Assembly (NCBI RefSeq): GCF_001281385.1
Contig: NZ_CP006911.1
Coordinates: 992,001-1,056,000 of the forward strand
Source of the DNA: Candidatus Pseudothioglobus singularis PS1
Lineage (GTDB): Bacteria; Pseudomonadota; Gammaproteobacteria; PS1; Pseudothioglobaceae
Direction: 5' to 3'
DNA length: 64,000 nt
The position numbers and the translations under genes were made by a program. The notes below the pieces were generated by a model. It saw only the letters and a program-made list of their open reading frames with translations. It made no database searches and was not told the DNA's origin. Positions 1 through 30,832 of this stretch are shown in pieces (the stretch's first letter is position 1; each line of letters begins with the position of its first letter).

Positions 1-6
1 CATAAT

Positions 7-1440
7 TTATTTCATGCCTGTTGAGGCAATTCCTGTTGTAATATATTTTTGAAGAAAAACAAAGACCAGTGTTGTTGGTACCAAGCTTACCACCGTCATT
101 GCAAGAGCATAATGCTCCCTCGCAAGATACTCTCCATTAAAGTCAAGCAAACAAAGCTGAATAGTGTAAGCGGCTTTTGTTGTTGAAACAGCTATCATAG
201 GGAGGATGAGATCATTCCAACGCCATATAATAGAAAGAATTCCAAGCACAGCTATTGCAGGCAGTGCCAATGGAAATATAATTCGCCAATAAATTGTCCA
301 CTCACTAGCTGCATCCATTCTTGCAGCCTCCAAGAGTTCATCTGGAATCGTAAGCATATATTGCCTGAGCATAAAGACCCCAGTAGGTGTCGCTGCTCCC
401 GGAATGATTACCCCCCAAAGAGAGCCAGAGAGACCTGTCATTGTTACCATTTTAAAAATACCCACAATGAGTACCGATGCAGGAACCATTAAAGTTGCCA
501 AAATGATAACAAAAAAGATGACCTGTCCATTAAATCGATACTTAGATAAGGCGAAAGCTGCCATAGAGTTAATCAGCAGTGTTATCAAGGTTGCTACTAT
601 TGTAACGAAGACCGAATTATTGAGACACCTAACCGCATCAAAGCTTTTTAGGGCTTTTTTAGTTAAAGGATCCGTATAGTTGATCCAAGAAGGCTTTAAA
701 TTTTTGTTAATAATAATTTCATTTTGAGGAAGCTTGGTTATGCCTCCTTTGGGATTGGAGACAAGCCTTGCATTGACAGTGTCTTTGGTTGGGTTAATTC
801 GGCTCACAGAGTACTCAACTAATTCTCCCGTTTGAGGATCCATCATGGACACCAAAATTTGCGCTGTAAATCCATTCGGTTTATAGGGCTTGAGTCCTAA
901 ATATTCAGATAACAACCTCGCATCCTCGTCAACAAGGCTGTCCACTATTGCTTGAGGATCATATTCCTTCTTAGCACTCGGAAACATGCTTGGGTACTTG
1001 ATGAGCCAGTCAGGTAGGTTTTGGCTAAGAATTAAATCCTTAGCCATTACGGATACCAGTCCAAAGTGCGATCTTAAAGCGTAGTATTCATTTCCACTAA
1101 AATTTTTGATATAGTTGACAACGTCCTTTTCAGCTCTTTCGTCATCACTCAAATTTTTCCAAAACATGACCCATGGCTCGAGGTCTTTCATAATAAGAAT
1201 ATCTTTACCATCTGGCCCATAGGTTGTGGCTCTTGCAATACGCTCATAGTCCATTGGTAGAAAATTAGTATCATACTTTTGAAGTAAGAATTGTGACTTA
1301 ACTGAGTTCATTACTAGCCACAAAACTGGCAAAAAGATGATCAAAAAGCCAAGAAATAAAAAACCATAAGAGATCCAGTCGGTCAGACTAGCTTTCTTTT
1401 TGCCCTGTCTACGAGTAAAAAATTTAATGACATCTGTCAT
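7..1440 (-). CDS. Sugar ABC transporter inner-membrane permease (MalG type) with a large periplasmic insert
   Basis: This is one of the two membrane subunits of a carbohydrate ABC importer. The C-terminal half is a standard MalG-like permease, with membrane segments from about residue 274 and the EAA coupling loop at about 371-390 (EAARMDAASE), which contacts the ATPase. A hydrophobic segment lies at about residues 24-46. Between it and the core is a hydrophilic stretch of about 225 residues where MalG-type proteins usually have only some tens, so the protein is 477 aa instead of about 280-300. The start overlaps the end of the upstream permease by four bases (ATGA), implying translational coupling. 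An ATG on the same strand at positions 3-1, five bases past the stop, could begin another operon gene outside the window. The substrate is not readable from this protein alone; the context suggests a sugar or sulfosugar glycoside. Confidence 0.9.
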   Translation of the reverse strand: MTDVIKFFTRRQGKKKASLTDWISYGFLFLGFLIIFLPVLWLVMNSVKSQFLLQKYDTNFLPMDYERIARATTYGPDGKDILIMKDLEPWVMFWKNLSDDERAEKDVVNYIKNFSGNEYYALRSHFGLVSVMAKDLILSQNLPDWLIKYPSMFPSAKKEYDPQAIVDSLVDEDARLLSEYLGLKPYKPNGFTAQILVSMMDPQTGELVEYSVSRINPTKDTVNARLVSNPKGGITKLPQNEIIINKNLKPSWINYTDPLTKKALKSFDAVRCLNNSVFVTIVATLITLLINSMAAFALSKYRFNGQVIFFVIILATLMVPASVLIVGIFKMVTMTGLSGSLWGVIIPGAATPTGVFMLRQYMLTIPDELLEAARMDAASEWTIYWRIIFPLALPAIAVLGILSIIWRWNDLILPMIAVSTTKAAYTIQLCLLDFNGEYLAREHYALAMTVVSLVPTTLVFVFLQKYITTGIASTGMK

Positions 1441-2492
1441 AGCTTGACTTGTCTCCTAGTTAAGTAGAATTGAAGCAAAGAAAGAACGATTAATATCAGC
1501 GCAACAATTAGAGAAGCCATTGCCGCAATGCCTAGGCCAAAGAATGTTTTTTGGCCACGTATTCCGGCATTTTCAACAATATAAGAAACAAGTGAGATCC
1601 ACCCAACTTGAAGCGCATAAAGCTCCTCAAATGCCTGAACCGCTTTAATGAGTGACAGTACTGTTACAACTAGTAAGATTGGCATTAATAAGGGCAGTGT
1701 AATGCGCCAAAAAACTCGCCTCTCTGAAGTCCCGTCCATTTGAGCAGCCTCATAAAGGTCTCTAGGAATTGACTGAAGTCCAGCCAACAAGATGAGCATA
1801 TAAAAACCCATATGAGCCCATGTATAGACAAAGATTGACCAGAACATTGTCCAGTTTGGATCCATTAGCCACTGGATCGGCTCACTAATCCAGTTCCAGT
1901 CTATTAGTGTTTGAGACAACATGCCTTGCCTCTTCAGTATAAGAGTCCATAAAAATGCAACAACCACAGGGCTCAGCATGACTGGATAAAAAAATACAGC
2001 CCTCCAAAAACCCCTTCCAATAACCTCCCTATTGAGAACAATTGCAGTAAAAAGAGCTATGAGTATCATAATAGGCACTTGAAGTATCACAAACACAAAT
2101 GTGTCATACAGCGCTGATTTGAATTTGGCATTCTCAACGTTAATACCGCCAGTATCAATTTGAATTTCCTGAGTAATTCTTGCCAGGTTATCAAGCCCTG
2201 AAAACGCTCTATTCTCAAAGTTGATACTTGTTCCATCGGTCACAGAAAAGCCAAAGTTCATGAACAATGGAAGAAACGTAAAGAGTCCAAATATGAGGAT
2301 ATTTGGAAATAAAAATAAGTAAGGAAGAGATTTAGTTCCAAACAGTTTTTGAGTAAACTCGATGGGCCAGCCAATACTTGACATAAGCTTTGGAATAAAG
2401 CCATAGACATCCTTTGCTAATATAAAACCCACCAAAAGATAGAGAGCAAAAAATAGAAACCAACTATTAAGATTTAAAACAGCGTCAAACAT
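1437..2492 (-). CDS. Sugar ABC transporter inner-membrane permease (MalF type)
   Basis: This is the partner membrane subunit of the preceding MalG-type permease. The 351-aa protein has an extra N-terminal hydrophobic helix (about residues 8-27) ahead of the usual six-helix core. The EAA loop is visible near the C-terminal third (YEAAQMDGTSERRVFWR followed by LPLL). It lies between the binding protein gene upstream and the MalG-type gene downstream, overlapping the latter by four bases. The family imports oligosaccharides, glycosides or polyols. The substrate is inferred only from the adjacent divergent sugar-catabolic operon. Confidence 0.9.
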   Translation of the reverse strand: MFDAVLNLNSWFLFFALYLLVGFILAKDVYGFIPKLMSSIGWPIEFTQKLFGTKSLPYLFLFPNILIFGLFTFLPLFMNFGFSVTDGTSINFENRAFSGLDNLARITQEIQIDTGGINVENAKFKSALYDTFVFVILQVPIMILIALFTAIVLNREVIGRGFWRAVFFYPVMLSPVVVAFLWTLILKRQGMLSQTLIDWNWISEPIQWLMDPNWTMFWSIFVYTWAHMGFYMLILLAGLQSIPRDLYEAAQMDGTSERRVFWRITLPLLMPILLVVTVLSLIKAVQAFEELYALQVGWISLVSYIVENAGIRGQKTFFGLGIAAMASLIVALILIVLSLLQFYLTRRQVKL

Positions 2493-2509
2493 TATAAGGA
2501 TTGAATTTT

Positions 2510-2543
2510 AAATAAAATTAAGGCCGCCTCAAGAGACGGCCTT
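2510..2543 (-). terminator. Hairpin plus U-rich tail between binding protein and permease genes
   Basis: The inverted repeat AAGGCCGCCTC / GAGACGGCCTT (one G-U pair on the minus-strand RNA) at 2520-2543 is followed on the minus strand by AATTTTATTT. It sits between the binding-protein gene and its downstream permease gene. It therefore probably acts as a partial terminator or 3' stabiliser, favouring binding-protein mRNA over permease mRNA. Confidence 0.7.
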
Positions 2544-2576
2544 AAAGTTTAGAACTTCAGTATAACTGAATAATAA

Positions 2577-3827
2577 CTATTCAGCTATCTTTGCTGCTAC
2601 GTCAGCATCAATCGCTGCCAAAGCGTCATCAAGGCTCATTTCACCAGTGATCGCTTTAGTTATGTAGTCAGGAACAATACCGTAAATGGCAAAGTTCTTA
2701 TTGTAACCTTGGAACCAATAGGCTTGCGGAGTAGATTCTGCCGCTTTACCTGCATTTGCTGCAAAAGTAGACAGTCCAGCTGAAACTCTCTGGCTTACGC
2801 CTGAGTAATCAATTCCAGCTTTTTGAAGACCTTGGTGTGCAGTAATGTTTGAAGTATTAGATGCAAAGTAACCCGCTCTTCCAGCTTGTGACAAGAAGTC
2901 AATGAACGAAGCTGAAACTTCAGGCTCCTTAGTTGATTTAAATGCAACAACTCCAGAACCTCCTGGCATTGCTCCACAACCACCTGATCCACATGGAATA
3001 GGAACAACTTTCCACTCAAAGTCAGTGATGTTTGCATCATAGTTACCAAGCATCCAAGATCCTGACATGTGCATAGCTACCGTACCATCTAGGAAAAGAG
3101 GTGCTGCATTTTTATAAGCAGTACCGCCACCAGCAGGCCAGCCTTCAGCAGGCATTAAGCCTTCCTCATGCCATCCAACAAACGTTTCAGCAAAAGCTTT
3201 GAATCCATCATCAACTAAAATAGGAACGCCATTCTCATGGAATTTAGCGCCATAAGAAAAAGCTGGTCCAGCCCATCTGTGTGCTGTTCTATCCATTGCA
3301 AGTCCAGCTGTTAGGCCTAGTTCAGACTTGACAACTCTTAGAGCGTCAGCCCAGTCATCCCAGGTAGCGCCTTCTTCAGGCATATCAACACCAGCATCTT
3401 CAAACATCGTTACGTTTACATAAGGACCCGTAACTGTGAGCTGTGCTTGCCAGCCATAAATTCCGTTATCGCCAGATGGTTTTCTATACCATGGCAACGT
3501 TGCACCATAGTTTGTTTCCCATTTTCCAGCATCAACATAAGGCGTAAGATCAAGGTAATACTGATTCAATCCACCTAAATTAGTAACACGAGCAACGTCT
3601 GGAGCAGAGCCAGCTTCAAGTTGATTCTCAAGCTGATCTCTAACTACATCATAGCCCACTTTTTCAAAGTTAACTGTATTTCCAGTTGAGTTTTCCCAAA
3701 CAGAAGACATCTCTTCCAAAACGTCACACTCATTAGCGTCCTGATAGCAAAGAAACTTAATTTCTGCTGCGTTAACACTAAACGAGGAGACGGCAAGAAA
3801 CGATACCAACAAAATACTTTTTTTCAT
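2577..3827 (-). CDS. Periplasmic sugar-binding protein of ABC importer
   Basis: This is a family 1 extracellular solute-binding protein that delivers a sugar to the MalF/MalG-type permeases encoded downstream. I place the start at the ATG at 3827, giving 416 aa, because a GGAGAGAGAT ribosome-binding site lies just upstream and the next residues (MKKSILL) open a clean signal peptide ending near VNA-AEI. A TTG 12 bases further up would add only MERD. The mature protein has the two-lobe pattern of the family, including the AGSAPDVAR segment typical of maltose-type binding proteins. It is expressed divergently from the sugar-catabolic operon at 4057. The ligand could be sulfoquinovosyl-glycerol or another glycoside; this is inference from context. 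Confidence 0.9.
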   Translation of the reverse strand: MKKSILLVSFLAVSSFSVNAAEIKFLCYQDANECDVLEEMSSVWENSTGNTVNFEKVGYDVVRDQLENQLEAGSAPDVARVTNLGGLNQYYLDLTPYVDAGKWETNYGATLPWYRKPSGDNGIYGWQAQLTVTGPYVNVTMFEDAGVDMPEEGATWDDWADALRVVKSELGLTAGLAMDRTAHRWAGPAFSYGAKFHENGVPILVDDGFKAFAETFVGWHEEGLMPAEGWPAGGGTAYKNAAPLFLDGTVAMHMSGSWMLGNYDANITDFEWKVVPIPCGSGGCGAMPGGSGVVAFKSTKEPEVSASFIDFLSQAGRAGYFASNTSNITAHQGLQKAGIDYSGVSQRVSAGLSTFAANAGKAAESTPQAYWFQGYNKNFAIYGIVPDYITKAITGEMSLDDALAAIDADVAAKIAE

Positions 3828-3857
3828 ATCTCTCTCCAATTATTTATATAGACAAAA

Positions 3858-3874
3858 ATTACAATATTTGTAAT
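3858..3874. promoter_or_regulatory. Perfect dyad ATTACAA-N3-TTGTAAT in the 5' leader of the binding-protein gene
   Basis: Seven-base arms ATTACAA and TTGTAAT are separated by TAT. The site lies 31 bases upstream of the binding-protein ATG, downstream of the predicted minus-strand -10 box, so it could be a repressor operator or a weak RNA stem. I find no matching copy at the other promoters examined. Confidence 0.4.
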
Positions 3875-3942
3875 TTGTTTGTTTGATTAATCTCATATAT
3901 AAAAAAGGAAAAGTTAAAAATATATAAAATTATTCAAATTGG

Positions 3943-3972
3943 AGTATACATGAATTCATATATAGCAGTAAA
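3943..3972 (-). promoter_or_regulatory. Predicted promoter of the binding-protein/permease operon
   Basis: On the minus strand a TATACT -10 (3943-3948) is preceded by a weak -35 TTTACT (3967-3972) with 18-bp spacing. The same ATGTATACT string occurs in the promoters of the galactoside operon (24913-24918) and glpK (10959-10964). Confidence 0.5.
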
Positions 3973-3997
3973 ATAATCCTATCGTTTTTGGTACACT

Positions 3998-4014
3998 GTT
4001 CCAATATATGAAAC
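3998..4014. promoter_or_regulatory. Shared 17-bp dyad, copy 1 (candidate IclR operator)
   Basis: The sequence GTTCCAATATATGAAAC is an imperfect palindrome. It differs at one position from the copy at 24967-24983 and closely resembles the copy at 10910-10926. It lies between two divergent operons, 49 bp upstream of the predicted -10 of the binding-protein gene and 42 bp before the aldolase ATG. IclR-family operators are typically dyads of this size, and an IclR gene lies at 11026. Confidence 0.65.
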
Positions 4015-4056
4015 TCTGTATTCTTTAACACTTTATTCTAATCTTATATATCAATA

Positions 4057-5079
4057 ATGAATACTCAAAATTTAGGAAAACTGATCCATCTAAAGAAACT
4101 TTGCACTGAAAATAATCACTTTCAAATGCTTGCTGTAGATCAAAGACCACCAATCTTTAACATCATATCTCAAGCAACAGGAAAAAAGCATACATACTCA
4201 CAAGTAGTTGAATGTAAAAAGCTCATAACCTCTCATATGTCAGAGTTTGCTACAGCCATTCTAATGGATCCTCACTATTCTTTGTCTAATCTTCTTTCGT
4301 TCAATAAGTCAAAAGGCCTTGTGATTACTTTAGAGGAGCACAGTTTTACAGAAACTAAGAAAGGAAGATACTCTAAAAATATCCCTAATTGGAGTGTTGA
4401 AAAAATTAAAAGAGCTGGAGGAGATGCAGTAAAAGTACTTGCTTGGTATAGACCAGATGCAGAGTCTAAATCAATTGAACACCAAAAAAACTACGTTAGA
4501 GAAATCGGTCAAGAGTGTGAAAAGTATAGTATCCCTTTTTTACTTGAGCTTCTTGTATATCCGTTTCAAGATGATGAAAATCATACGACTGAATACCAAG
4601 AACAAAAACAGAAAAAAACCCAACACGTTATTGATAGTGTTAAAGAATTCGCTAAAGACGAATATAAAGTTGATATTTTTAAATTAGAGAGTCCTGTCGA
4701 TAGCAGTCAACTTGAAGGCGAAATAAGTCAAGATACAAAAGCAGCATTCAAAGACCTCTCTTTAGCAACTAATAATAAACCATGGGTTGTGCTTTCCTCT
4801 GGAATGGGCAAGGATTCATTCTATAAGTGTTTAGAGCTTGCCTACAAAAATGGGGCCTCAGGATATCTTGCAGGGAGAACTATCTGGCTTGATGCCTTCA
4901 ACCAATATCCAAATATTAAGCAAGTCGAAGAAGGTTTAAAAAAAGACTCTAGAAGCTATGTTAATAAGTTAAATGAATTAACTGCCTCAAATGCTCAATC
5001 TCTTGAAACTTATTTTAATAATGGATTTAAAATTGAAAGCCCTGAACAATTTACAAAAGAATTTGGAGGTTTTGAATGA
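4057..5079 (+). CDS. Class I aldolase of the LacD/YihT family (candidate sulfofructose-1-phosphate aldolase)
   Basis: This enzyme probably splits a ketohexose phosphate into dihydroxyacetone phosphate and an aldehyde through a Schiff base. The 340-aa sequence follows tagatose-1,6-bisphosphate aldolase LacD throughout: the early DQR motif (28-30), AVKVLAWY with Lys126, and DIFKLESP with Lys209, which matches the Schiff-base lysine region of LacD. The sulfofructosephosphate aldolase YihT belongs to the same superfamily. The neighbours are an isomerase, a YihV-like kinase and a SlcC-like dehydrogenase, so a 6-deoxy-6-sulfofructose-1-phosphate substrate is plausible. Tagatose-bisphosphate aldolase is the main alternative. 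It is first in a five-gene plus-strand operon, and the next gene overlaps by four bases. No Shine-Dalgarno sequence is evident before the ATG. Confidence 0.8.
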   Translation: MNTQNLGKLIHLKKLCTENNHFQMLAVDQRPPIFNIISQATGKKHTYSQVVECKKLITSHMSEFATAILMDPHYSLSNLLSFNKSKGLVITLEEHSFTETKKGRYSKNIPNWSVEKIKRAGGDAVKVLAWYRPDAESKSIEHQKNYVREIGQECEKYSIPFLLELLVYPFQDDENHTTEYQEQKQKKTQHVIDSVKEFAKDEYKVDIFKLESPVDSSQLEGEISQDTKAAFKDLSLATNNKPWVVLSSGMGKDSFYKCLELAYKNGASGYLAGRTIWLDAFNQYPNIKQVEEGLKKDSRSYVNKLNELTASNAQSLETYFNNGFKIESPEQFTKEFGGFE

Positions 5080-6452
5080 TTGGATATTTAGCACTTGCAA
5101 GGGAAACCTTTGATGTTGAGTTTGCTGAGTCAAAATTCAGTAACGCCAAGTCACTTTTATTGTCGCTATCTCCGAGTGCAATTGGCTTTAATGAGCTCAT
5201 TACGAATGATGAAGATGCCAGTAAAGCTTTAACATTTTTTAAAAGTAACCCCTGTGACAAAATTTTTCTCTTTCAAACAACCTTTACAGACGCTAAATTT
5301 CTCTTAAATTTTGCTCAAGAAATCAACAAACCCATTTGCATCGTCTCATTTCCAGAGCCAAGAACGGGTGGAAGATTAAGGCTCAACTCGATTTGTGGCC
5401 TCAACCTGGGTATGCACTCATTAATAAAGAACAGCATTACTCCAGAATTTGTCATCATGGAGTCTGATGAAAAAGTCAATGAGTCCTCATTTCTAGGTTT
5501 TATAAGCGGCACAGCTGAAGTTGATCAACTGTCTTGGAAAGAAGCAACGATTAGTAACAATCACGCTGATTTTGATTACACTATTGACAAGCAAACTATA
5601 GGAATTATTGGAACTAGGCCTGAAGGCTTTGATACCTGTGACTATGACTCCAACGAGGTAACGAGTAAGCTCAATGTGTCCCTGATAGATCTCGAGCTTG
5701 AAGACCTTTTTGATGAAGCCAAAGAAGTTGAAGCAGATACTATTCTTAAAACCAAGAGCACTGTTTCAAGTTATCTTCAAGGAACCGAGGATCTCGTTCA
5801 AGAAGAATTTGATAAAAGCCTTTCAATCTATCATGGTCTTGAGAGTTTAAAAGATAAGCACAATCTTGACGCCTTTGCGATACGATGCTGGCCAGAGACT
5901 TTCACAGAGTATGGATGCGCTTCATGTGGACCGATGGCAATGATGAATGAAAAAAAAGTAAGCTGCGCTTGCGAGGCAGACGTACTTGGAGGAATTAGCT
6001 GCAACATACTTAACCAAATGAATGACAGCCCTTCCCTTCTCGTAGATATTGTTGACGTTGACAAAGCTGACAATTCCTTGGTATTTTGGCATTGTGGTTT
6101 AGCCCCAATCAGTATGGCAAAAAAAGGTACTGCTAAATCTGGAATTCACTCTAATAGAAGAAAACCCCTGCTTCATGATTTCAGTCTTAAGGAGGGTGAA
6201 ATAACTATATTTAGAGTTTCAAAAGCTCGAAACACACTTCAATTTTTCATTATGAAGGGCAAGGTCATTGATAGACCAAACTCTTTTTCTGGAACCTCTG
6301 GAGTAATTAGTCTGGGTGAGAATAGTCCACAAAAATTAGAGGAAATGTTTAAAGGTGGACTTGAGCACCATGTTGCATTTACTTATGGTGATATATCTGA
6401 TCAATTAATTCATTTTGGTCAGCAAATGAATATACCCACATATACGCTATGA
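5076..6452 (+). CDS. L-fucose/arabinose isomerase-like sugar isomerase (candidate sulfoquinovose isomerase)
   Basis: This is probably a metal-dependent aldose-ketose isomerase. The 458-aa protein has the layout of the FucI/AraA-like superfamily: an N-terminal Rossmann-like half and a C-terminal half carrying CWPETF (271-276), the Cys-rich CASCGPMAMM and CACEADVLGG (298-306) region, and FWHCGLAP (338-345), which supply acidic and histidine residues of the type used for Mn2+ binding. It overlaps the aldolase gene before it and the oxidoreductase gene after it by four bases each, so the three are co-translated. It is not related to YihS, the AGE-fold isomerase of classical sulfoglycolysis. As I recall, a variant EMP-type sulfoglycolysis uses a FucI-like isomerase, which would fit. 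The substrate remains inferred. Confidence 0.7.
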   Translation: MIGYLALARETFDVEFAESKFSNAKSLLLSLSPSAIGFNELITNDEDASKALTFFKSNPCDKIFLFQTTFTDAKFLLNFAQEINKPICIVSFPEPRTGGRLRLNSICGLNLGMHSLIKNSITPEFVIMESDEKVNESSFLGFISGTAEVDQLSWKEATISNNHADFDYTIDKQTIGIIGTRPEGFDTCDYDSNEVTSKLNVSLIDLELEDLFDEAKEVEADTILKTKSTVSSYLQGTEDLVQEEFDKSLSIYHGLESLKDKHNLDAFAIRCWPETFTEYGCASCGPMAMMNEKKVSCACEADVLGGISCNILNQMNDSPSLLVDIVDVDKADNSLVFWHCGLAPISMAKKGTAKSGIHSNRRKPLLHDFSLKEGEITIFRVSKARNTLQFFIMKGKVIDRPNSFSGTSGVISLGENSPQKLEEMFKGGLEHHVAFTYGDISDQLIHFGQQMNIPTYTL

Positions 6453-7537
6453 CAGAAAAACTAAAATATGCCATTATTGGTGCAGGGTGTATGGGCCAAG
6501 AGCACATACTTAATATAGATATTATTGATGATGCTGAGGTTGTTGCATTGTGCGATACTAGTGAAAAATCTATCAAGGAATCTCTTGACTTACTTAATAA
6601 TGATGTTGCTATTTTTGATAATTACATTGACCTTGTAGAGGCCAACATTGCAGATGCATTTATCATTGCAACACCCAACTTTACGCACATTGAAGTTTTG
6701 AAAGAAGTAATGAAATCAGAAGCTCATCTGCTGATAGAAAAGCCGCTCTGTACAACTGTTAAGGACTGTCAAGAATTTGAAAAATTGGCAGTAGACTATC
6801 CGGGTGTTATTTGGACTGCGATGGAATATCGCTATATGCCACCTGTCCAAAGAATGATTAAAGAGATTCATAACAAAACTATCGGTGATTTAAAAATGCT
6901 CTCTATTCGTGAGCACCGCTTTCCATTTCTTCATAAAGTTGATGACTGGAACCGCTTCGCTATAAAGACTGGAGGCACTCTGGTTGAAAAGTGTTGCCAC
7001 TTTTTTGACCTAATGAGACTGATTGCTCAAAGTGAACCTCTAAAAGTTTATGCGAGTGGCAATCAAGACGTTAACCATCTAGACGAGTCCTATGACGGAG
7101 AAACACCTGATATTCTTGATAATGCGTTTGTCATTGTTGACTTTGAGAATGGAGTCAGAGCATTCCTAGACTTGTGTATGTTTGCAGAAAACTCCGACTA
7201 TCAAGAGGAGTTGTGCGCAGTAGGTTCTGTAGGAAAAGTAGAAACTGAAGTGCCATCAAATTCCTCCGGAATTACAAACTCGGACATCAGAATTGGACTC
7301 AGAGAAAATCAAACTGCACTCAAAGAAAACATAACTGTTGATGCTAAAATCCATCAGGCAGGACACCATCATGGCTCAACATACTATGAACACACCTCGT
7401 TCATCAGCGCTATTCGCAACAACACCAAACCAGAAGTCTCGCTCAACGATGGCCTCATTGCAGTTGCAATTGGTGAGGCCGCAGAAATCTCTATCAAAGA
7501 AGGAAGGGTTGTCCAGATGAGTGAATTTAACCTCTAG
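6449..7537 (+). CDS. Gfo/Idh/MocA-family NAD-dependent oxidoreductase (candidate NAD+-dependent sulfoquinovosidase)
   Basis: The 362-aa protein has an N-terminal NAD(P)-binding fold with GAGCMG (11-16) and the family EKP motif (97-99). A catalytic-region signature follows: GGTLVEKCCHFFD (175-187) with His184 and Asp187. Members oxidise sugars or, in glycosidase subfamilies, cleave glycosides by a transient NAD+ redox cycle. A Gfo/Idh/MocA family of NAD+-dependent sulfoquinovosidases (GH188) is known from sulfoquinovose loci. No GH31 sulfoquinovosidase is present here, and this gene sits between the isomerase and a YihV-like kinase, so it is my best candidate for releasing sulfoquinovose from its glycoside. 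An ordinary sugar or inositol dehydrogenase is the alternative. Confidence 0.7.
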   Translation: MTEKLKYAIIGAGCMGQEHILNIDIIDDAEVVALCDTSEKSIKESLDLLNNDVAIFDNYIDLVEANIADAFIIATPNFTHIEVLKEVMKSEAHLLIEKPLCTTVKDCQEFEKLAVDYPGVIWTAMEYRYMPPVQRMIKEIHNKTIGDLKMLSIREHRFPFLHKVDDWNRFAIKTGGTLVEKCCHFFDLMRLIAQSEPLKVYASGNQDVNHLDESYDGETPDILDNAFVIVDFENGVRAFLDLCMFAENSDYQEELCAVGSVGKVETEVPSNSSGITNSDIRIGLRENQTALKENITVDAKIHQAGHHHGSTYYEHTSFISAIRNNTKPEVSLNDGLIAVAIGEAAEISIKEGRVVQMSEFNL

Positions 7538-7573
7538 CAACACCCGCCACCTATTTTCATTACAATTGACCCC

Positions 7574-8479
7574 ATGATTACTTGCGTTGGCCCTATTTTT
7601 CTAGACAGAGTTGTCAAAATTGATCGCTTTCCTGAAAAGCCAATCAAAATGGTAGCAAATGGACTAGAGAAGCGCCTCGGTGGGCCTGCTCCTGTTGCGA
7701 GCTTTGCCATTAGTTCTCTTGGCGGTAATGTAGAATTTATTGGCAGATTTGGGAGTGATGATGCCGCTGATTTTTTAAAGTCAGAGTTTATTAAATCTGG
7801 CATCCCAACTCTTAAATCCATCACCGTTCAAGATGCTCAAACGTCACAAAGCCACATCTTTGAAGATAAAAAAGGTGAAAGAATGCTGGCAGTCTTCAAT
7901 GAGGATAAGCTCATCAATGAAAAGACAATGCCTATTTTTGATTTTTCTATTGGACAGTCTTATCTTGTGGACACCAACTGGATTGAAGCAGCCCATTACG
8001 TTGCAGTTCATTGTCAAAATAATAAGCTCAATTGTGTTGTTGATCTTGATAATTTCTCTAATAGCACTCTTCTTGAAGAGGTAGTCAATCTCTCGTCCCA
8101 TCCAATTTTTTCTGAAATTGGCTTGAATCGATACACAAACAACACACCTATCATAGAAGCACTAAAAAGTCTCTATCAAAGTAACCCAAAATTTTATGCG
8201 GTAACCCAAGGATCTAAAGGCGTTTATTGGATCGACAATGGAGAAATTTTTCATTGTGACTCACCCCTCGTTGAAGTAAAAGAAACGAATGGTGCTGGAG
8301 ATGTTTTTCATGGCGCTTTTGCTCATTTCATTACTACTAAACCCATACAAGAGGCAATCGAACTTGCAACAGCCACAGCATCGCTAAAGTGCACAATGAT
8401 AGGCGGCATTAATAATCTGCCCAACTCTAACGACGTGGCAGAGTTTTCAAACAAATTACAACCTTCTAGAAAAATTTAA
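7574..8479 (+). CDS. PfkB-family kinase, YihV-like (candidate sulfofructose kinase)
   Basis: This is a ribokinase/PfkB fold sugar kinase of 301 aa that transfers phosphate from ATP to a ketose. It has the N-terminal glycine pair in RLGGPAP (35-41), FIGRFGSDD (55-63) and the C-terminal anion-hole motif NGAGDVFHGA with catalytic base Asp243. Several stretches follow my memory of E. coli YihV (6-deoxy-6-sulfofructose kinase) rather than generic ribokinases: SQSHIF followed by KGER (91-103), IFSEIGLNR (178-186) and SLKCTMIGG (270-278). It starts 36 bases after the oxidoreductase stop and ends just before the dehydrogenase gene. The kinase product would be the substrate of the aldolase at 4057. 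This is the strongest single indication of sulfoglycolysis in the locus. Confidence 0.8.
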   Translation: MITCVGPIFLDRVVKIDRFPEKPIKMVANGLEKRLGGPAPVASFAISSLGGNVEFIGRFGSDDAADFLKSEFIKSGIPTLKSITVQDAQTSQSHIFEDKKGERMLAVFNEDKLINEKTMPIFDFSIGQSYLVDTNWIEAAHYVAVHCQNNKLNCVVDLDNFSNSTLLEEVVNLSSHPIFSEIGLNRYTNNTPIIEALKSLYQSNPKFYAVTQGSKGVYWIDNGEIFHCDSPLVEVKETNGAGDVFHGAFAHFITTKPIQEAIELATATASLKCTMIGGINNLPNSNDVAEFSNKLQPSRKI

Positions 8480-8480
8480 A

Positions 8481-9407
8481 ATGAAAAAAGTACTCATAAC
8501 AGAATTCATGGAACAGGACAGTGTTGACAAAATGTCTAAACATTTTGAGGTCACTTATGATACAAACCTTCACGAGAATCTTGATAATTTAAGTTCTCTA
8601 ATAGTGGATACAGATGCTGTCATTGTTCGAAATAAGACTCAGCTTAATGAAGCCCTACTTGCTAATGCAAAAAACTTGAGGTTTGTTGGAAGGCTTGGCG
8701 TTGGTTTAGATAATATTGACACTGAGTTCTGCTCTAATAACAATATCTTAGTGCAGCCAGCTTCAGGTATGAATGCAGATTCTGTTGCTGAATACGTCAT
8801 TACATGCGCCCTTTCTCTATTAAAAAATATCCCAATTGCACACAATGGAACCTCGTCGGGTCAATGGCCTAGAACCTCGATCGAGTCAAGGGAGTTAGGT
8901 GGAAAAACTCTTGGGTTACTCGGCTTTGGTGTAATCGGTAAAAAAGTTTCTAAATTAGCTCAAATTTTTGGAGCAGAGGTGATTGCCTATGACCCTTTTG
9001 TTTCTCAAGCGGATGCTAATGAGCATCAAGTTTCATTAGTTAAGCAGGAAGAGCTTTATAGTCTTTCGGATGTCATTTCGATTCATCTCCCACTGACTGA
9101 TGAGACAAGCGATTTAATTAATGAAAATACTTTTAATTTAATGAGAAAAAATCCAATCATTATTAATTCATCTAGAGGAACAATTGTCAACGAGAATGAC
9201 TTACTAGCGGCCTATCATGAAAATGTAATTAGTGGCTTTGCGCTCGATGTTTATAGCTCAGAACCAGTTAAAGCCGAATTCTATGATGAAATCTCTAACT
9301 CAATGAACTGCATCCTTACTCCTCACACTTCGGGAGTTACATCTGAGTCCAACGTGAGAGTCAGTCAATTTATTGCTGAAAAGACGATTAGTTTTCTAGG
9401 AAATTAA
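8481..9407 (+). CDS. D-isomer-specific 2-hydroxyacid dehydrogenase, SlcC-like
   Basis: The 308-aa NAD-dependent dehydrogenase belongs to the phosphoglycerate dehydrogenase superfamily. It has GFGVIG (148-153) for NAD binding and the catalytic set Arg232 (SSRG), Glu261 (SSEP) and His282 (PHTSG). The N-terminal LITEFM and the C-terminal [15 protein letters not shown] resemble, from memory, (S)-sulfolactate dehydrogenase SlcC, which interconverts sulfolactate and sulfopyruvate. It lacks the regulatory ACT domain of serine-biosynthetic SerA. It is the last gene of the plus operon, starting one base after the kinase stop, and its end overlaps the convergent glpK stop by four bases. In a sulfosugar pathway it could process the three-carbon sulfonate, but no sulfopyruvate or sulfolyase gene is in the window, so the fate is open. 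Other 2-hydroxyacids are possible substrates. Confidence 0.75.
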
Positions 9408-10903
9408 TGATTAGACAAAGTTCGCTTGACAGCATTCTTCCATCCAGCGAGTTTTTTATCTCTTTCGTTGTCTGACATCTTTGAATTAAACTGACTCTCA
9501 GATTTCCATGATTTAGCAAAATCTTCCATGGTTGGGTAAAAACCGATTTGCATACCTGCCAAATAAGCAGCTCCAAGTGCTGTTGTCTCTAGGTTCTTTG
9601 GTCTATCAACTGGGAGCTGAAGCAAATCTGAAAGCGTTTGCATTGTCCAGTTTGAAGCTGCCATACCGCCATCCACTCTAATCGCACTCAGCTTATGATC
9701 GCCTAGATCTTTGGAAATTGCATTAAGCAGATCTGAGGTTTGGTAGCAAACAGACTCAAGTGTAGCCTTTGTAATTTCAGCTGGACCCGTACCTCTCGTA
9801 ATGCCATAAAGTGCTCCGCGACAATCTGGATCCCAATAAGGCGCCCCAAGTCCCACGAAAGCTGGTACAAGATAAACGTCTTGAGATAAATCTGCTTGCA
9901 TTGCTAATGAGTCAGACTGATCAGCTGATTCTATGATTTGGAGTCCATCTCGAAGCCATTGAACAGCAGCGCCAGCTACAAATATTGAACCCTCTAGAGC
10001 GTAGCAGGTTTTGCTATTAACTTGGAAAGCTAGGGTAGTCAGCAACTTATTATTAGATTTTATCGGCTGATTCCCTGTATTTATTAATACAAAGCAACCC
10101 GTTCCATACGTAGACTTGACCATTCCAGGCTCAAAACATGCCTGGCCCACAAGAGCAGAGGGCTGATCACCTATCATAGCTGAAATAGGAATTTCAGTTC
10201 CAAAAATTGATTTATGGGCCATAGCAAAGCTTGCTGCATTATCTTTTACTTGGGGAAGCATTGTGATAGGGATATTAAAAAGTTCTAGCATATCCTTATC
10301 CCAACAGCCTTCATGAATATTGTATAAAAGCGTTCGACAGGCATTGGTCGCGTCAGTTGAATGGACCTCTTGATTACTTAATCGCCAAAGCAGAAAACTG
10401 TCAATTGTTCCAAAAAGTAATTCCCCATCATTCGCTTTTCTTCTGGCTCCCTCAACGTTATCTAAAATCCAGGCTATTTTAGTGCCACAAAAATAAGGGT
10501 CAAGCAGAAGACCCGTTTTATTAGTGACAAGATCCTCGTGTCCAAGGTCCCGTAACTTCTGGCACTGATCTGACGTCCTACGATCTTGCCATACAATGGC
10601 ATTATAGATCGCTTTGCCTGTCTTCTTATCCCATACGACTGTGGTCTCTCTTTGGTTAGTGATGCCTATTGCTGCAATCTGAGCGGGGTCAATTTTTGCT
10701 TTTTTAATAGCACTTTTACAGCTCTCAAGCGTTGATTCCCAAATCTCTTCAGGATCATGCTCAACCCATCCTGAATCAGGAAAAATTTGTGTAAATTCTT
10801 TCTGACCAATTCCAGCTATTTCATAGTTACTGTCAAACAGCACTCCCCTAGATGAAGTTGTTCCTTGATCAATAGATAAGATATATTTTTTAGGCTCGCT
10901 CAT
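9404..10903 (-). CDS. glpK: Glycerol kinase
   Basis: The enzyme phosphorylates glycerol to sn-glycerol 3-phosphate in the cytoplasm. The sequence opens with the FGGY/GlpK phosphate-binding motif [11 protein letters not shown], and carries [41 protein letters not shown] and the C-terminal DGGMAASNW, so the assignment is firm. I start it at the ATG at 10903, giving 499 aa, the usual family length. The upstream ATG at 10954 would add 17 unrelated residues and place the conserved 17-bp dyad inside the gene. No glycerol facilitator or glycerol-3-phosphate dehydrogenase is in the window. Its place between two glycoside operons and beside the IclR gene suggests it handles glycerol released from imported glycosyl-glycerols. 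Confidence 0.93.
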
Positions 10904-10909
10904 TCTACT

Positions 10910-10926
10910 TTTCCATATAATGGAAC
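10910..10926. promoter_or_regulatory. Shared 17-bp dyad, copy 2, at glpK/iclR (candidate IclR operator)
   Basis: TTTCCATATAATGGAAC contains perfect six-base arms TTCCAT and ATGGAA. Its reverse complement, GTTCCATTATATGGAAA, matches copy 3 (24967-24983) at 15 of 17 positions, counted by eye. It lies just upstream of the glpK ATG and downstream of the predicted glpK -10, a position suited to repression, and about 100 bp upstream of iclR. Confidence 0.65.
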
Positions 10927-10958
10927 TAGGTTTTACTATTGTAAACTTAATCAAAAAC

Positions 10959-10989
10959 AGTATACATTATCTGATAAAATTTAACTCAA
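10959..10989 (-). promoter_or_regulatory. Possible glpK promoter
   Basis: On the minus strand a TATACT -10 (10959-10964) within ATGTATACT matches the -10 strings of the two binding-protein operons. The best -35 is TTGAGT (10984-10989), but the 19-bp spacing is long, so the call is tentative. Confidence 0.35.
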
Positions 10990-11025
10990 TAATGAGCATT
11001 TAAAAATTAATCAAAAGATTATATT

Positions 11026-11817
11026 ATGACTATTGAAAAGAGAGGAGATGGAACGGTTGGTAAGGCACTAGATGTTTTAAGTGAAGTGGCTGAGATCGGC
11101 TCTCCCGTTAGATTTTCTAGCCTACTTAAAACTAGCAAATATCCAAAAGCAACCCTTTACAGACTTCTCCAAACGCTTCTTAACCAGGACATGCTCAGCT
11201 ACAATGAAGAAGAGCAAACCTATAAATTAGGTCTAAAGCTTGTCAGAATGGCTCATTCTGCCTGGCTGCAAAGCTCGCTAGCACCAGTTGCGGTGCCATT
11301 TATTGATGAACTCTCGGCCAAAGTGGGTGAAACCGTTCACCTAGCTGAACTCGACAACGGTCAAGTCTTATATGTAGATAAACGAAACCCTGCTTCACCT
11401 ATTGAAATGTACTCACAGGCAGGCAAAGTTGGTCCTGCTTACTGTACGGGTGTAGGTAAGGCAATGATGGCCTTTTTAGAGGAGTCTGAACTTAGCAAAG
11501 TTATTTCTAAGCAAGCTTTCTTTAAGTATACAGATCACACAATTACCTCAGAGAAAGCCCTTAGAAAGGAGTTGACTATGATCAAAAAAGAAGGGATATC
11601 ATTTGATCGTCAGGAGCATGAGGAAAAAATTATCTGTATCTCCTCTCCTATCCTTACATCCAATGGAAGAGTAATTGGGGGCCTCTCTATCACAAGCTCA
11701 ACTGATATTCATAGTTTAGAAAGTCTTGAAAAATATAAACCTGAATTACTGGCAACTTCAGAGCAAATTGGCAAAGAGGCAGGCGCCTGGAGTTTCCCAG
11801 AAAAATCAATCAATTAA
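11026..11817 (+). CDS. IclR-family transcriptional regulator
   Basis: The 263-aa protein has an N-terminal winged helix-turn-helix (about residues 8-70: GKALDVLSEV, then KYPKATLYRLLQTLL as recognition region). A C-terminal effector-binding domain follows (LAELDNGQVLYVDKR, YCTGVGKAMMAF). IclR proteins bind small carbon metabolites and repress or activate catabolic operons. It diverges from glpK, is followed by the MalK-type ATPase 11 bases later, and lies between the sulfosugar-like operon and the galactoside operon. A 17-bp IclR-like dyad occurs at three promoters around it, so I infer it controls all three. The effector is unknown; a sugar acid or sugar phosphate from either pathway is likely. 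No Shine-Dalgarno sequence is obvious. Confidence 0.92.
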   Translation: MTIEKRGDGTVGKALDVLSEVAEIGSPVRFSSLLKTSKYPKATLYRLLQTLLNQDMLSYNEEEQTYKLGLKLVRMAHSAWLQSSLAPVAVPFIDELSAKVGETVHLAELDNGQVLYVDKRNPASPIEMYSQAGKVGPAYCTGVGKAMMAFLEESELSKVISKQAFFKYTDHTITSEKALRKELTMIKKEGISFDRQEHEEKIICISSPILTSNGRVIGGLSITSSTDIHSLESLEKYKPELLATSEQIGKEAGAWSFPEKSIN

Positions 11818-11828
11818 TATAAATTACT

Positions 11829-12887
11829 ATGGCATCATTAAAGATAAAAAACGCAACAAAGAAATATGATGATTTAGAGGTTATTCATGGCATCGATTTA
11901 GATATTCAGGATGGTGAATTTTGTGTTTTTGTTGGACCATCAGGTTGTGGTAAGTCTACCTTACTGAGAATGATATCTGGACTAGAGGATGTAACTAGTG
12001 GTGCAATTCATATTGGTGAAAATGATGTCACCTCGATGCACCCTGCCGATAGAGGGATTGCCATGGTGTTTCAGTCTTACGCACTTTATCCTCACATGAC
12101 AGTCAGAGAAAATATGGGATTTGGGCTTAAGATGTCCAAGGTGCCTTCAAATGAAATTGATCAAAAAGTTAATGAGGCTGCAAGTATTCTTCATCTAGAA
12201 GAGTACCTAGACAGAAAACCTAAAACCTTGTCAGGTGGTCAAAGACAAAGAGTTGCCATTGGCAGATCAATTGTTAGAGGCCCTGAAGTGTTTTTATTTG
12301 ATGAACCTTTATCGAACCTTGATGCAGAGCTCAGAGTAGAAATGCGTGTTGAAATTTCACGACTGCATCGTGAGCTTGGAACGACCATCATTTATGTCAC
12401 CCATGATCAGGTTGAGGCGATGACATTAGCAGACAAAATAGTCATCCTTAAGGATGGACTCATCCAACAAGTAGGTTCACCCTTGTCTCTGTATGATGAC
12501 CCAGAAAATGTTTTTGTTGCAGGGTTTATTGGTTCGCCAACTATTAACTTCGTCCAGGGCAGAGTAAACGGCGCAAAAATTATAGTTCCTAGTCTAGAGT
12601 CGCTCAAACTGAATGCCCCTAAAGATATAGATTCAAATCAATCAGAGCTATTAATTGGATTAAGACCTCAACACATTCAGATTTCAGGTTCGGGTGATCT
12701 TGAAGTTGAATTTACTGAGGCTCTAGGTGACGTCTCTTACTTATATCTTAAAACTCCAAATGGAGAAAGAATTGTTGTCGAATCAAGGGACGATAAATTG
12801 CCTAAAACAGCTGCAAAAGTTGGTATCAAGGTCGACACTTCAAGAGCTTTATTGTTTGACCCTAAAACTGAACTCAGAGTCAGATAA
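11829..12887 (+). CDS. Sugar ABC transporter ATPase (MalK/UgpC type)
   Basis: This ATP-binding subunit energises a carbohydrate importer. It has Walker [10 protein letters not shown] (36-44), the signature LSGGQ (134-138), Walker B FLFDEP (155-160) and a C-terminal regulatory TOBE/OB region typical of MalK and UgpC, with total length 352 aa. It is the only MalK-type ATPase in the window, while two sets of MalF/MalG permeases lie on either side (1437-2492 with 7-1440, and 21763-23501). MalK-like ATPases can serve several permease pairs, so it may power both, unless another ATPase starts just left of position 1. It is co-directional with iclR and ends two bases before the convergent beta-galactosidase gene. 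Confidence 0.93.
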
Positions 12888-14797: not shown

Positions 14798-14804
14798 GAC
14801 AGCC

Positions 14805-15668
14805 TCAGATCTTTACCTGATATTCAGCTAGACCAGCTATATCAGTTTTAAAGTGAAATACTTTACCAGCCATAGGCTCAGTTTTCAAATCATTATTATT
14901 TAATCCTTGAGATGCAGAAGTGATATACAAGGTATCAAAAAACTTCCCGCCAAGAGATGGGCATGTAACTTGAGATACTGGAACCTCTTCAACTCGATCC
15001 AGCCACCCTTCAGGACTATATCTCGCAACTCTAGAAGCGCCATACTGAGCATTCCAAATATAACCCTGGCTATCGCAGATAGAGCCATCTGGATGAAGCC
15101 CTTGAGCTTTAAGATTGATTAATATTGAGGGCTCATTGAGGGGCCAACCAGTCAATTGGTCTAGATCCTGCTTTAAGATTTTTTTTTGAGATGTATCAGT
15201 AAAATAAACAAACTTCCTATCAGGTGAAAAACAAATACTATTTGGAATAGTAATACCTTCATGTAATTTTTTTAGCTGACCTTGATGAAACCGATAAATC
15301 GAACCAGCACCTTGCTCTGCCTTAAGGCCCATTGTTCCTATCCAAAAACCGCCCCATGGATCAGCTCGGCCATCATTTGAGCGAGTATGGGGCATGTCAG
15401 CCTCTAAATCAATTAAAGTCTCCCTGGTGTCCTTTGAAATCGAGAACTTTATCAATGCGGATGCACTTGCAATAATGAGATGGTCATCATCAATCCAGCC
15501 TGCCGCTGAAACTGGCTCAGAAAATGTCCAAGTCTTCAGTATGGCATTCTTCCAGTTAAACATCTTGTGAGAGTTGATATCAAACCAGAACAGAGACTCT
15601 AGCCCTGGGTGCCAAAGAGGCCCCTCTCCCAGACTGCAAGGCTCTATTGGTAAGGACTCAGTGATCAT
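14805..15668 (-). CDS. SMP-30/gluconolactonase-family lactonase (probable galactonolactonase)
   Basis: This is a six-bladed beta-propeller sugar lactonase of 287 aa. The opening CSLGEGPLWHP with Glu15, the central SNDGRADPWGGFWIGTM and the FSPDRKFVYFTDT segment are hallmarks of the SMP-30/gluconolactonase/LRE family, whose Glu, Asn and Asp residues bind the catalytic divalent metal. In this operon it should hydrolyse D-galactono-lactone, made by the SDR dehydrogenase, to D-galactonate. Its start overlaps the aldolase gene by one base, and the beta-galactosidase gene follows. Arabinonolactone or related lactones cannot be excluded. Confidence 0.87.
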   Translation of the reverse strand: MITESLPIEPCSLGEGPLWHPGLESLFWFDINSHKMFNWKNAILKTWTFSEPVSAAGWIDDDHLIIASASALIKFSISKDTRETLIDLEADMPHTRSNDGRADPWGGFWIGTMGLKAEQGAGSIYRFHQGQLKKLHEGITIPNSICFSPDRKFVYFTDTSQKKILKQDLDQLTGWPLNEPSILINLKAQGLHPDGSICDSQGYIWNAQYGASRVARYSPEGWLDRVEEVPVSQVTCPSLGGKFFDTLYITSASQGLNNNDLKTEPMAGKVFHFKTDIAGLAEYQVKI

Positions 15669-17193: not shown

Positions 17194-17199
17194 TCTTTT

Positions 17200-22611: not shown

Positions 22612-22613
22612 AA

Positions 22614-23501: not shown

Positions 23502-23524
23502 GCAGATTCAATATTAAAAATATT

Positions 23525-23564
23525 AAAAAAAAAGTCCCGTGTCAAGAATACTTGAACACGGGAC
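23525..23564 (-). terminator. Strong hairpin with U-tract between binding protein and permease genes
   Basis: The arms GTCCCGTGT (23534-23542) and ACACGGGAC (23556-23564) are perfect, extended by CAAG/CTTG. They are followed on the minus strand by an uninterrupted run of about nine T. This has the full form of an intrinsic terminator. It lies inside the operon, so partial read-through must supply the permeases and enzymes unless another promoter exists. Confidence 0.85.
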
Positions 23565-23582
23565 ATAGTAAAACCTTATTGA

Positions 23583-28650: not shown

Positions 28651-28676
28651 ATAAATTTTTTTGTTACGTTATTGAT

Positions 28677-28718
28677 AAAAAAAATCGCGCCTCAAGTATA
28701 CCCTTGAGACGCGATTTT
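28677..28718. terminator. Bidirectional hairpin between the two tandem binding-protein genes
   Basis: AAATCGCG and CGCGATTT flank a near-complementary CTCAAG/CTTGAG extension with a short loop. T-runs lie on both sides, including seven T after the stem on the minus strand. It follows the first binding-protein gene and precedes the second copy, consistent with an attenuator. Confidence 0.8.
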
Positions 28719-28742
28719 TATTTTAATTAAATGGACTTTTTC

Positions 28743-29825: not shown

Positions 29826-29897
29826 ACTTTTTCTCCTTTTAGTTATTTAACAAATTTTCTTACTTCTTCTTACTTTTTTACAAATAAATTCAGCAAA

Positions 29898-30827: not shown

Positions 30828-30832
30828 AGTCT

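Follow-up and report, generated by a model that had tools for sequence, protein, structure and literature searches.

Which substrate is handled by the five co-directional genes and the divergent ATP-binding cassette (ABC) importer that lie at one end of a 64,000-nucleotide stretch of the Candidatus Pseudothioglobus singularis PS1 genome? This genome is a single contig of 1,714,148 bases, and the stretch analysed, referred to here as the window, covers bases 992001-1056000; positions below are window positions unless another source is given. PS1 is a cultured gammaproteobacterium of the SUP05 clade, from Puget Sound surface water (PMC4616169). A preliminary description of the window had proposed an operon for glycosides of sulfoquinovose (SQ). 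Our analysis of gene families, conserved residues and gene neighbourhoods leads us to consider it likely that the genes form a hybrid sulfo-Embden-Meyerhof-Parnas (sulfo-EMP) operon that acts on sulfoquinovosides, for example sulfoquinovosyl glycerol, mixing two known versions of the pathway. The genes are:

4057-5079, + strand: class I LacD-like aldolase, candidate 6-deoxy-6-sulfofructose-1-phosphate aldolase (PF01791; PRK12858; Lys209)
5076-6452, + strand: FucI/AraA-fold isomerase, SqvD/SftI-like, candidate sulfoquinovose-sulfofructose isomerase (PF02952; NF048012; fold)
6449-7537, + strand: predicted nicotinamide adenine dinucleotide (NAD)-dependent sulfoquinovosidase of glycoside hydrolase family 188 (GH188), SqgA type (PDB matches; SQ and sulfonate residues kept)
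7574-8479, + strand: predicted YihV-type PfkB-family sulfofructose kinase (PDB match to YihV, 7ag6; tree; PF00294)
8481-9407, + strand: predicted SlcC-like (S)-sulfolactate dehydrogenase of the D-2-hydroxyacid dehydrogenase superfamily (identity; SuyB/ComDE linkage)

The proposed layout, including the importer and two four-base overlaps (aldolase/isomerase and isomerase/GH188), is present. There are 36 bases upstream of the kinase gene and a single base between the kinase and dehydrogenase genes; a third four-base overlap, this time convergent, joins the dehydrogenase gene to a glycerol kinase (GlpK) gene. Scans for promoters (26 sites against 20.4 expected, standard deviation 4.8) and for terminators (4 against 5.3 expected) gave no signal.

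Using the isomerase alone as query, we retrieved 35 related loci. Thirteen are gammaproteobacterial and 22 come from single-amplified or metagenome-assembled genomes (SAG/MAG) of uncultured Alphaproteobacteria (gamma and alpha loci below). With identity cut-offs of 30-50% and a coverage of 30%, GH188 is present in 35/35 and the kinase and dehydrogenase in 34/35. The loci form two related sets and are therefore not independent (the 22 alpha loci, in particular, are not 22 independent events); the co-occurrence of these genes with the isomerase nevertheless exceeds chance. In the exception, L077, the kinase, dehydrogenase and GlpK are apparently missing; this locus begins at the edge of a contig. 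L077 and L088-L090 all start inside the isomerase gene. Among 58 genomes searched, the isomerase occurs in 15, all within the 29 genomes of the genus (PS1 included). Besides PS1, the records that carry the isomerase at 76-96% identity are labelled Pseudothioglobus, Thioglobus, SUP05, Thiotrichales or gamma proteobacterium, with one PS1 clade bacterium (L085), whose identity of 83% led us to tally it as a gamma locus. A mutarotase-like gene is present in 21 of the 22 alpha loci.

The preliminary description had suggested a Gfo/Idh/MocA glycosidase, and the 6449-7537 protein is indeed a GH188 member, for which NAD-dependent cleavage of sulfoquinovosides is predicted. Among PDB sequences it matches FlSqgA (8qc2) with 372 bits, ArSqgA (8qc3) with 360.5 and an unnamed oxidoreductase (8zn9) with 329.9, and the first match outside this group drops to 83.5 bits. 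Among the plasmid matches listed (30 of 1161 records), 22 show 44-50% identity and 8 at most 30%. Residues K98, Y127, R157, L161, K163, E180 and H184 correspond by motif to Lys107, Tyr136, Arg166, Leu170, Lys172, Glu189 and His193 of ArSqgA, and H307 corresponds by pairwise alignment to His321; these are the residues given as contacting SQ and its sulfonate (PMC10755693). The Arg/Leu/Lys triad of the sulfonate site (R157, L161, K163) is kept in the GH188 proteins of 35/35 relatives, and the EKCCH motif, in the exact form scored, is absent from 3/35. An inositol dehydrogenase is ruled out (123 bits against a cut-off of 355). In 10 of the 22 alpha loci a GH31-family gene (for example, L066:2638-5019) lies near GH188; it may serve another function, since GH188 and GH31 sulfoquinovosidases have been reported as complementary (PMC10755693).

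The kinase was compared with PDB sequences and placed in a tree of 26 rows, in which PS1 paralogues longer than 380 residues were trimmed to 380. YihV (7ag6) scores 150.7 bits, the sugar kinase 2rbc 101 and the best ribokinase 52.2. A clade of ten marine kinases (100/99) is nested in a group with YihV and the Zymomonas, Cereibacter and Neorhizobium kinases (100/98), and LacC, FruK, PfkB, RbsK and six paralogues from the same genome fall outside this group. The tree and the PDB scores thus rule out a tagatose-6-phosphate kinase, a fructose kinase or a ribokinase, and bear out the earlier suggestion of a YihV-like enzyme, which had been drawn from the blocks IFSEIGLNR and SLKCTMIGG (both found).

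For the isomerase, the only NCBIfam match is the sulfoquinovose isomerase model SftI (NF048012), at 301.9 bits. A predicted model, with a predicted local distance difference test score (pLDDT) of 82, is closest to L-arabinose isomerase (Z 32.8, aligned over 294 residues at 2.3 A), followed by FucI at Z 29.4, and the best unrelated entry reaches Z 11.3; the match spans residues from about 160 onward. The FucI-like identity that had been proposed is therefore upheld by fold, with a sub-threshold match to SftI. Foldseek gave two matches beyond the isomerase families, both periplasmic binding proteins (6e-4 and 9e-4), which we read as partial Rossmann-like similarity. Neither phmmer nor a profile search with the protein's alignment found a match among PDB sequences, and there is no BLAST match to YihS, which belongs to PF07221 rather than PF02952. 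Homologues adjoin GH188 on the Zymomonas plasmid pZZM402 and lie beside a pyrophosphate-dependent phosphofructokinase (PFP)-type kinase in Chlorohelix. The latter (L093, a Ca. Chlorohelix allophototropha plasmid, Chloroflexota) carries an SqvD-like isomerase, the PFP-type kinase, a succinate-semialdehyde dehydrogenase (SSADH), a nitrite/sulfite reductase, an ABC importer and a gene resembling phosphoglycerate dehydrogenase. A second match to the isomerase family, 27-30% identical to that of the window, occurs in three genomes of the same genus that also carry the first copy (loci L039, L040 and L041); one of these matches is partial, with a stop.

The aldolase is a class I enzyme of LacD-like type, and this part of the earlier LacD/YihT-class assignment stands. 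It is no nearer to YihT (24% identity) than to LacD (28%), and the tree, with a split of only 70/91, weak deep forks and long branches, does not fix its position. A grouping with LacD, which had been named as an argument against a sulfosugar role, is found in part: the protein scores 325 bits with PRK12858 (LacD-like tagatose-bisphosphate aldolase subfamily; cut-off 184) and only 144.2 against 432.2 with the lacD equivalog TIGR01232. The Schiff-base lysine that had been pointed out, K209 (VDIFKLESPV), is invariant in an alignment of 11 sequences including LacD and YihT. Among PDB sequences the best match is 8tnf (282.7 bits; titled DUF2090 domain-containing protein), for which the literature search found no relevant paper, followed by LacD-type entries at 118-141 and YihT at about 66. 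The nearest plasmid proteins (40 spread rows of 433 records) are from Neorhizobium (44%) and Microvirga (39%). The gene is present in 10/13 gamma loci and in 1/22 alpha loci. Directly upstream of the isomerase in one alphaproteobacterial genome (G068, locus L078, G068:C1:142013-142120) only a 36-residue match remains, which suggests loss of the LacD-like aldolase there.

The fifth protein is SlcC-like and is predicted to oxidise (S)-sulfolactate. It is 39.5% identical to a hydroxyacid dehydrogenase of Paracoccus seriniphilus whose gene lies beside Ldh-family and SuyAB-type genes. Its eight best matches among 2,699 plasmid records (39.5-41.9%; NZ_CP090580, NZ_CP041241, CP038201, NZ_CP035286, NC_010510, NZ_CP090350, NZ_CP067170 and NZ_CP067132) are all linked to SuyB, with the genes 1 to 14 kb apart, and the ninth among the matches listed falls to 36.5%. 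A SuyB-type match of at least 60% occurs in 13 records, among them all eight; the other five are not among the dehydrogenase matches listed. In three of the eight that were examined, the gene directly adjoins an Ldh-family (ComC-type) gene with both SuyAB-type genes nearby. One of the eight is from Sinorhizobium mexicanum, a species in which SlcC, ComC and SuyAB homologues have been named (PMC12421959).

The alpha loci provide a second line of evidence. Two small genes for thiamine pyrophosphate enzymes (ComDE-type) adjoin the kinase and dehydrogenase genes in 22/22 alpha and 0/13 gamma loci. The ComD model (TIGR03845) is passed in all three alpha loci scored (161.1, 156.2 and 160.5 over 147.95) and the ComE model in one (222.6 over 221.5); the phosphonopyruvate decarboxylase model reaches at most 133.6 against a cut-off of 312.5. 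An enzyme making sulfopyruvate would be well matched with a neighbouring sulfopyruvate decarboxylase, and the position of the dehydrogenase therefore fits sulfopyruvate production. A housekeeping phosphoglycerate dehydrogenase was rejected for 8481-9407 (TIGR01327, 262.9 against 454), the SuyB and ComDE linkage favouring SlcC, as had originally been proposed.

From the observed gene content, families, conserved residues and linkage, we infer the following substrates and reactions, including an aldehyde dehydrogenase and downstream genes joined to the operon from elsewhere in the genome. The ABC system would import a sulfoquinovoside, presumably sulfoquinovosyl glycerol, and GH188 would release SQ and glycerol through transient NAD-dependent oxidation at C3, the glycerol being phosphorylated by GlpK. 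The isomerase would convert SQ to sulfofructose, the YihV-type kinase would form sulfofructose-1-phosphate, and the LacD-like aldolase would cleave this to dihydroxyacetone phosphate and (S)-sulfolactaldehyde (SLA). An unlinked aldehyde dehydrogenase may oxidise the latter to (S)-sulfolactate, and the SlcC-like enzyme would produce sulfopyruvate. In PS1, a ComC-type enzyme (L043) could then give (R)-sulfolactate and a SuyAB-type lyase pyruvate and sulfite, which an AprA-type pathway can oxidise; PS1 would thus mineralise SQ to sulfite inside the cell. In the alpha relatives, the ComDE-type genes would direct sulfopyruvate to sulfoacetaldehyde and then to Xsc.

The operon does not encode the full EMP-type scheme that had been claimed, as it lacks the conversion of sulfolactaldehyde to sulfolactate: no SLA dehydrogenase or YihU is present among the genes of window 7-12887. 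A search of the whole PS1 genome for aldehyde dehydrogenases gave 15 matches, some sharing one gene (about 13 genes). Among the best 25 families for each of the nine genes scanned (E up to 1e-80), none is a model named after sulfolactaldehyde. The best candidate for the step would be a GabD-type enzyme (G000:C1:485905-487287); the GabD-type protein, 45-49% identical to that of the Zymomonas SQ cluster, is full length in 27/30 genomes. Two relatives' loci (L065 and L070) hold an aldehyde dehydrogenase 36-37% identical to PS1 GabD, at the far locus end. In Paracoccus wurundjeri, where an SlcC/ComC-SuyAB route follows (S)-sulfolactaldehyde, an SLA dehydrogenase is likewise described as not identified (PMC12421959).

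For the later steps, PS1 has the following locus, of a type known for 2,3-dihydroxypropane-1-sulfonate (DHPS) and sulfolactate:

G000:C1:218000-237000, positions 1248-9885 (L049): tripartite ATP-independent periplasmic (TRAP) transporter, HpsP-like, HpsO-like, HpsN homologue, SuyB-type and SuyA-type genes (homology and context)

One protein, taken as SuyB, is 74% identical to the UxaA-family product encoded after hpsN/hpsO in Cupriavidus pinatubonensis; its SuyA-type partner has 49% identity, the HpsN homologue 69% (Cupriavidus) and the HpsO- and HpsP-like proteins 46% each. The ComC-like enzyme (L043) is 54% identical to the Paracoccus Ldh-family protein. SuyB-type genes occur in 11/15 isomerase-bearing members of the genus, the remaining four being 57-82% complete. 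Among members at least 89% complete they are found in 8/8 with the isomerase (PS1 included) against 3/6 without, a comparison that ignores kinship. PS1 Xsc scores 1017.7 (cut-off 676.4), and Xsc exceeds its cut-off in 26/29 host genomes of the loci and 0/14 controls; for AprA the PS1 score is 1000.7 (cut-off 641.75), again with 0/14 controls. The PS1 genome contains no ComD match (TIGR03845). No ComD exceeds the cut-off in the 58 genomes, and 27 of them show weak matches, mostly at about 19-28 bits within frames of about 580 codons.

A number of results weigh against the sulfo-EMP interpretation and must be set beside those above. The position aligned with the Arg of the YihV motif DVRW, which we take to be sulfonate-binding, is Asn or His in 12/12 gamma kinases (Asn in PS1, where the motif reads DTNW); the alpha kinases keep the Arg (22/22). 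The isomerase lies far below the SftI cut-off (301.9 against 700) and the aldolase scores as tagatose-bisphosphate aldolase-like. The aldolase was not found in 21/22 alpha loci, although L088-L090, which start inside the isomerase, could not show it. It has matches in only 16/29 host genomes, six full-length above 50% and ten weak or partial, with none in 13; most alphas must therefore use another aldolase. ComE is barely under its cut-off in two of the three loci scored (218.4 and 217.9 against 221.5), and a dehydrogenase tree of 18 sequences, with long branches, leaves the join to SlcC-context proteins open. The GabD candidate scores best to succinate-semialdehyde dehydrogenases and adjoins amino-acid genes (a homoserine dehydrogenase and two of the PALP family), and no aldehyde dehydrogenase at least 45% identical to it occurs inside the 35 relatives' loci. 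In addition, the SuyAB-, HpsOP- and ComC-type genes are unlinked to the operon and carry these labels from homology and context, no curated model having named the SuyAB pair; L043 itself reaches 240.5 of the 500 bits of the sulfolactate dehydrogenase model.

Do these results favour another explanation? The hydroxyacid dehydrogenase might instead reduce (S)-sulfolactaldehyde to (S)-DHPS, leaving HpsO-, HpsP-, HpsN- and SuyAB-type enzymes to finish the degradation. No aldehyde dehydrogenase would therefore be needed, which would suit both the lack of a close one linked to the operon and the HpsOPN-SuyAB-TRAP type locus in the genome. We regard this as unlikely because the enzyme is nearest to SuyB-linked SlcC-context proteins, its ComDE-type neighbours throughout the alpha loci fit sulfopyruvate production, and BLAST finds no match between it and the SLA reductase YihU. 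A different substrate would account for the tagatose-bisphosphate-like score of the aldolase: sulfofucose, a sulfosugar with the galacto configuration, or a glycoside of it, processed via sulfotagatose and sulfotagatose-1-phosphate with LacD-like cleavage. The L-arabinose isomerase family, to which the isomerase fold is closest, also acts on galactose, and a galactoside locus adjoins the operon. An EMP-like sulfofucose route has been considered in Paracoccus wurundjeri, but the proteins were not induced and sulfofucose is called rare (PMC12421959). GH188, moreover, is reported for sulfoquinovosides (PMC10755693), the sole curated match of the isomerase is a sulfoquinovose isomerase and the kinase groups with YihV, so that a sulfofucose substrate appears improbable.

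It is very improbable that the operon serves an unsulfonated sugar with enzymes that merely resemble those for sulfosugars. Such a reading could draw on the LacD-like aldolase, the sub-threshold isomerase and a solute-binding protein with weak PDB matches and a model at pLDDT 39, but the GH188 sulfonate-binding triad, the SlcC-like and ComDE-type partners and the YihV grouping all indicate a sulfonate. The sulfoquinovose interpretation of the preliminary description is thus supported overall: of the outcomes it had set against itself, those for the kinase and the oxidoreductase did not occur and that for the aldolase did so in part.

The importer lies upstream of the operon, on the opposite strand:

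7-1440, - strand: ABC importer permease, MalG/UgpE type, 477 amino acids (PF00528)
1437-2492, - strand: ABC importer permease, UgpA type (PF00528)
2577-3839, - strand: ABC solute-binding protein, probable candidate binder of sulfoquinovoside or sulfoquinovose (PF01547/PF13416)

The first permease has 49-99% identity to the permease in the same place in most relatives' loci, and 29-30% in one alpha subgroup. The solute-binding protein gene is kept in 11/13 gamma and 13/22 alpha loci; the predicted model of the PS1 protein is too poor for use. A UgpC-type ATPase gene spans the left window edge (G000:C1:990987-992003), and the ATPase adjoins the permease pair in 11/13 gamma and 13/22 alpha loci (the sole ATPase of L077 is of another kind, hence its absence from the gamma tally).

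Downstream of the operon are found:

9404-10954, - strand: glycerol kinase GlpK (TIGR01311, 691.5 bits over 590.35)
11026-11817, + strand: IclR-family regulator (PF01614/PF09339)
11829-12887, + strand: UgpC-type ABC ATPase (PRK11650, 471.3 bits over 432)
12890-24821, - strand: galactoside locus with GH42, lactonase, 2-keto-3-deoxy-6-phosphogalactonate (KDPGal) aldolase, DgoK, short-chain dehydrogenase/reductase, IlvD/EDD dehydratase, GH36, ABC permeases and binding protein

The KDPGal aldolase is over its model cut-off. The GlpK, regulator and ATPase genes separate the galactoside locus from the operon, and GlpK would take the glycerol freed from glyceryl glycosides. The GlpK gene is present in 7/13 gamma loci and GH42 in 6/13 (one being L077), both in 0/22 alpha loci; several gamma loci do not extend far enough to reveal them and L057 differs in its downstream region. 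The identity of the galactosides as galactosyl glycerols is a guess. With it, one may tentatively read window 1-24.8 kb as an island for the headgroups of three thylakoid glycolipids. The operon would serve sulfoquinovosyl glycerol from sulfoquinovosyl diacylglycerol (SQDG), and GH42/GH36 and the galactonate route the galactosyl and digalactosyl glycerol of mono- and digalactosyl diacylglycerol (MGDG/DGDG). GlpK would take the shared glycerol; the sulfur of SQ would be mineralised in PS1 and the sulfite oxidised via Apr for energy, the alphas using the same carbon steps and then ComDE and Xsc to give acetyl phosphate. If this is true, phytoplankton sulfolipid is both a food and an electron donor for a sulfur-oxidising cell of the SUP05 clade. 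In low-ice Arctic communities, the enriched functions include those for taurine, sulfoquinovose, GH36 and GH42 (PMC10504371), which is only a hint in this direction.

Marine SQ users named so far include Roseobacter (by SQ monooxygenase, sulfo-SMO), Oceanospirillaceae/Alteromonadaceae (by SQ dioxygenase, sulfo-SDO), Vibrio and several other labelled taxa (PMC13372026). With a sulfoglycolytic operon, Pseudothioglobus and the 22 genomes of uncultured Alphaproteobacteria would bring streamlined plankton onto this list. Very probably, a small free-living ocean bacterium here takes up and degrades the sulfur-containing sugar found in the membrane lipids of algae and cyanobacteria. The pathway probably ends with sulfur release inside the same cell, which would provide a route for mineralising the sulfonate rather than shedding it as sulfolactate or DHPS, and the predicted ComDE branch would lead from the sugar straight into the sulfoacetaldehyde/Xsc pathway. 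As PS1 is cultured, the idea is testable. In the main texts of the open-access literature, the one paper found with both Thioglobus and sulfoquinovose deals with them separately; neither Pseudothioglobus nor ARCTIC96BD-19 is among the matches listed for sulfonate or sulfoquinovose, and no paper has HIMB59, AEGEAN-169 and sulfoquinovose together. A search there for sulfopyruvate decarboxylase with sulfoquinovose led to a single paper, with ComDE as an entry in a list of enzymes.

How does the PS1 operon compare with known systems? The closest by gene content are the GH188 'Y160' clusters (for example, that of Actinobacteria bacterium IMCC26103), for which the pathway is also predicted (Backlund and Higgins 2024, PMC11465081). 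These contain GH188, a fucose-isomerase-like protein, a sulfofructose kinase, a sulfofructose phosphate aldolase, a D-3-phosphoglycerate-dehydrogenase-like protein, an ABC transporter and a regulator. They differ in the sulfonate-loop position, which is Tyr there and Leu in PS1 GH188, and in that the PS1 cluster is without SLA dehydrogenase and SuyAB, the alpha relatives having ComDE-type genes instead. With sulfo-EMP of E. coli and Arthrobacter sp. AK01 (PMC8873060, PMC10755693), PS1 shares a YihV-type kinase, a PF01791 class I aldolase and the predicted intermediates, and with AK01 also GH188. Its isomerase, however, has the FucI/AraA fold and is not YihS (PF07221; PMC8873060), its aldolase cannot be clearly assigned to the YihT branch, and the cluster contains neither YihU nor SLA dehydrogenase. 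Sulfo-EMP2 of Bacillus urumqiensis has a FucI-family isomerase (SqvD) and the same predicted intermediates, but uses SqiK, of the PfkA family, and the class II aldolase SqiA, whereas the PS1 enzymes are PfkB/YihV-type (PF00294) and class I (PF01791; PMC9594981).

SlcC-, ComC- and SuyAB-type homologues are common to PS1 and Paracoccus wurundjeri; in PS1 the slcC-like gene lies within the sulfoquinovose operon, and the comC- and suyAB-type genes are elsewhere (PMC12421959). Plasmid pZZM402 of Zymomonas mobilis ZM4 (L092, L130) carries on one replicon an isomerase (35% identity), GH188 (48%) and a YihV-type kinase (34.5%), and differs in having a class II aldolase, a linked SSADH-type dehydrogenase and major facilitator superfamily and TonB transport. 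No SlcC-like gene is annotated within 1-11448 and 28000-33915 of its 33915 bases. It also has an aldose-epimerase-type mutarotase, and its gene set is itself an apparent hybrid sulfo-EMP. Because Y160 clusters and EMP/EMP2 hybrids have already been described (PMC9594981 and PMC13372026 for the latter), the PS1 set is a variation on a described theme. It is therefore the combination of GH188, SqvD-like isomerase, YihV-type kinase, LacD-like aldolase and SlcC-like enzyme, together with its ComDE version, that counts as new.

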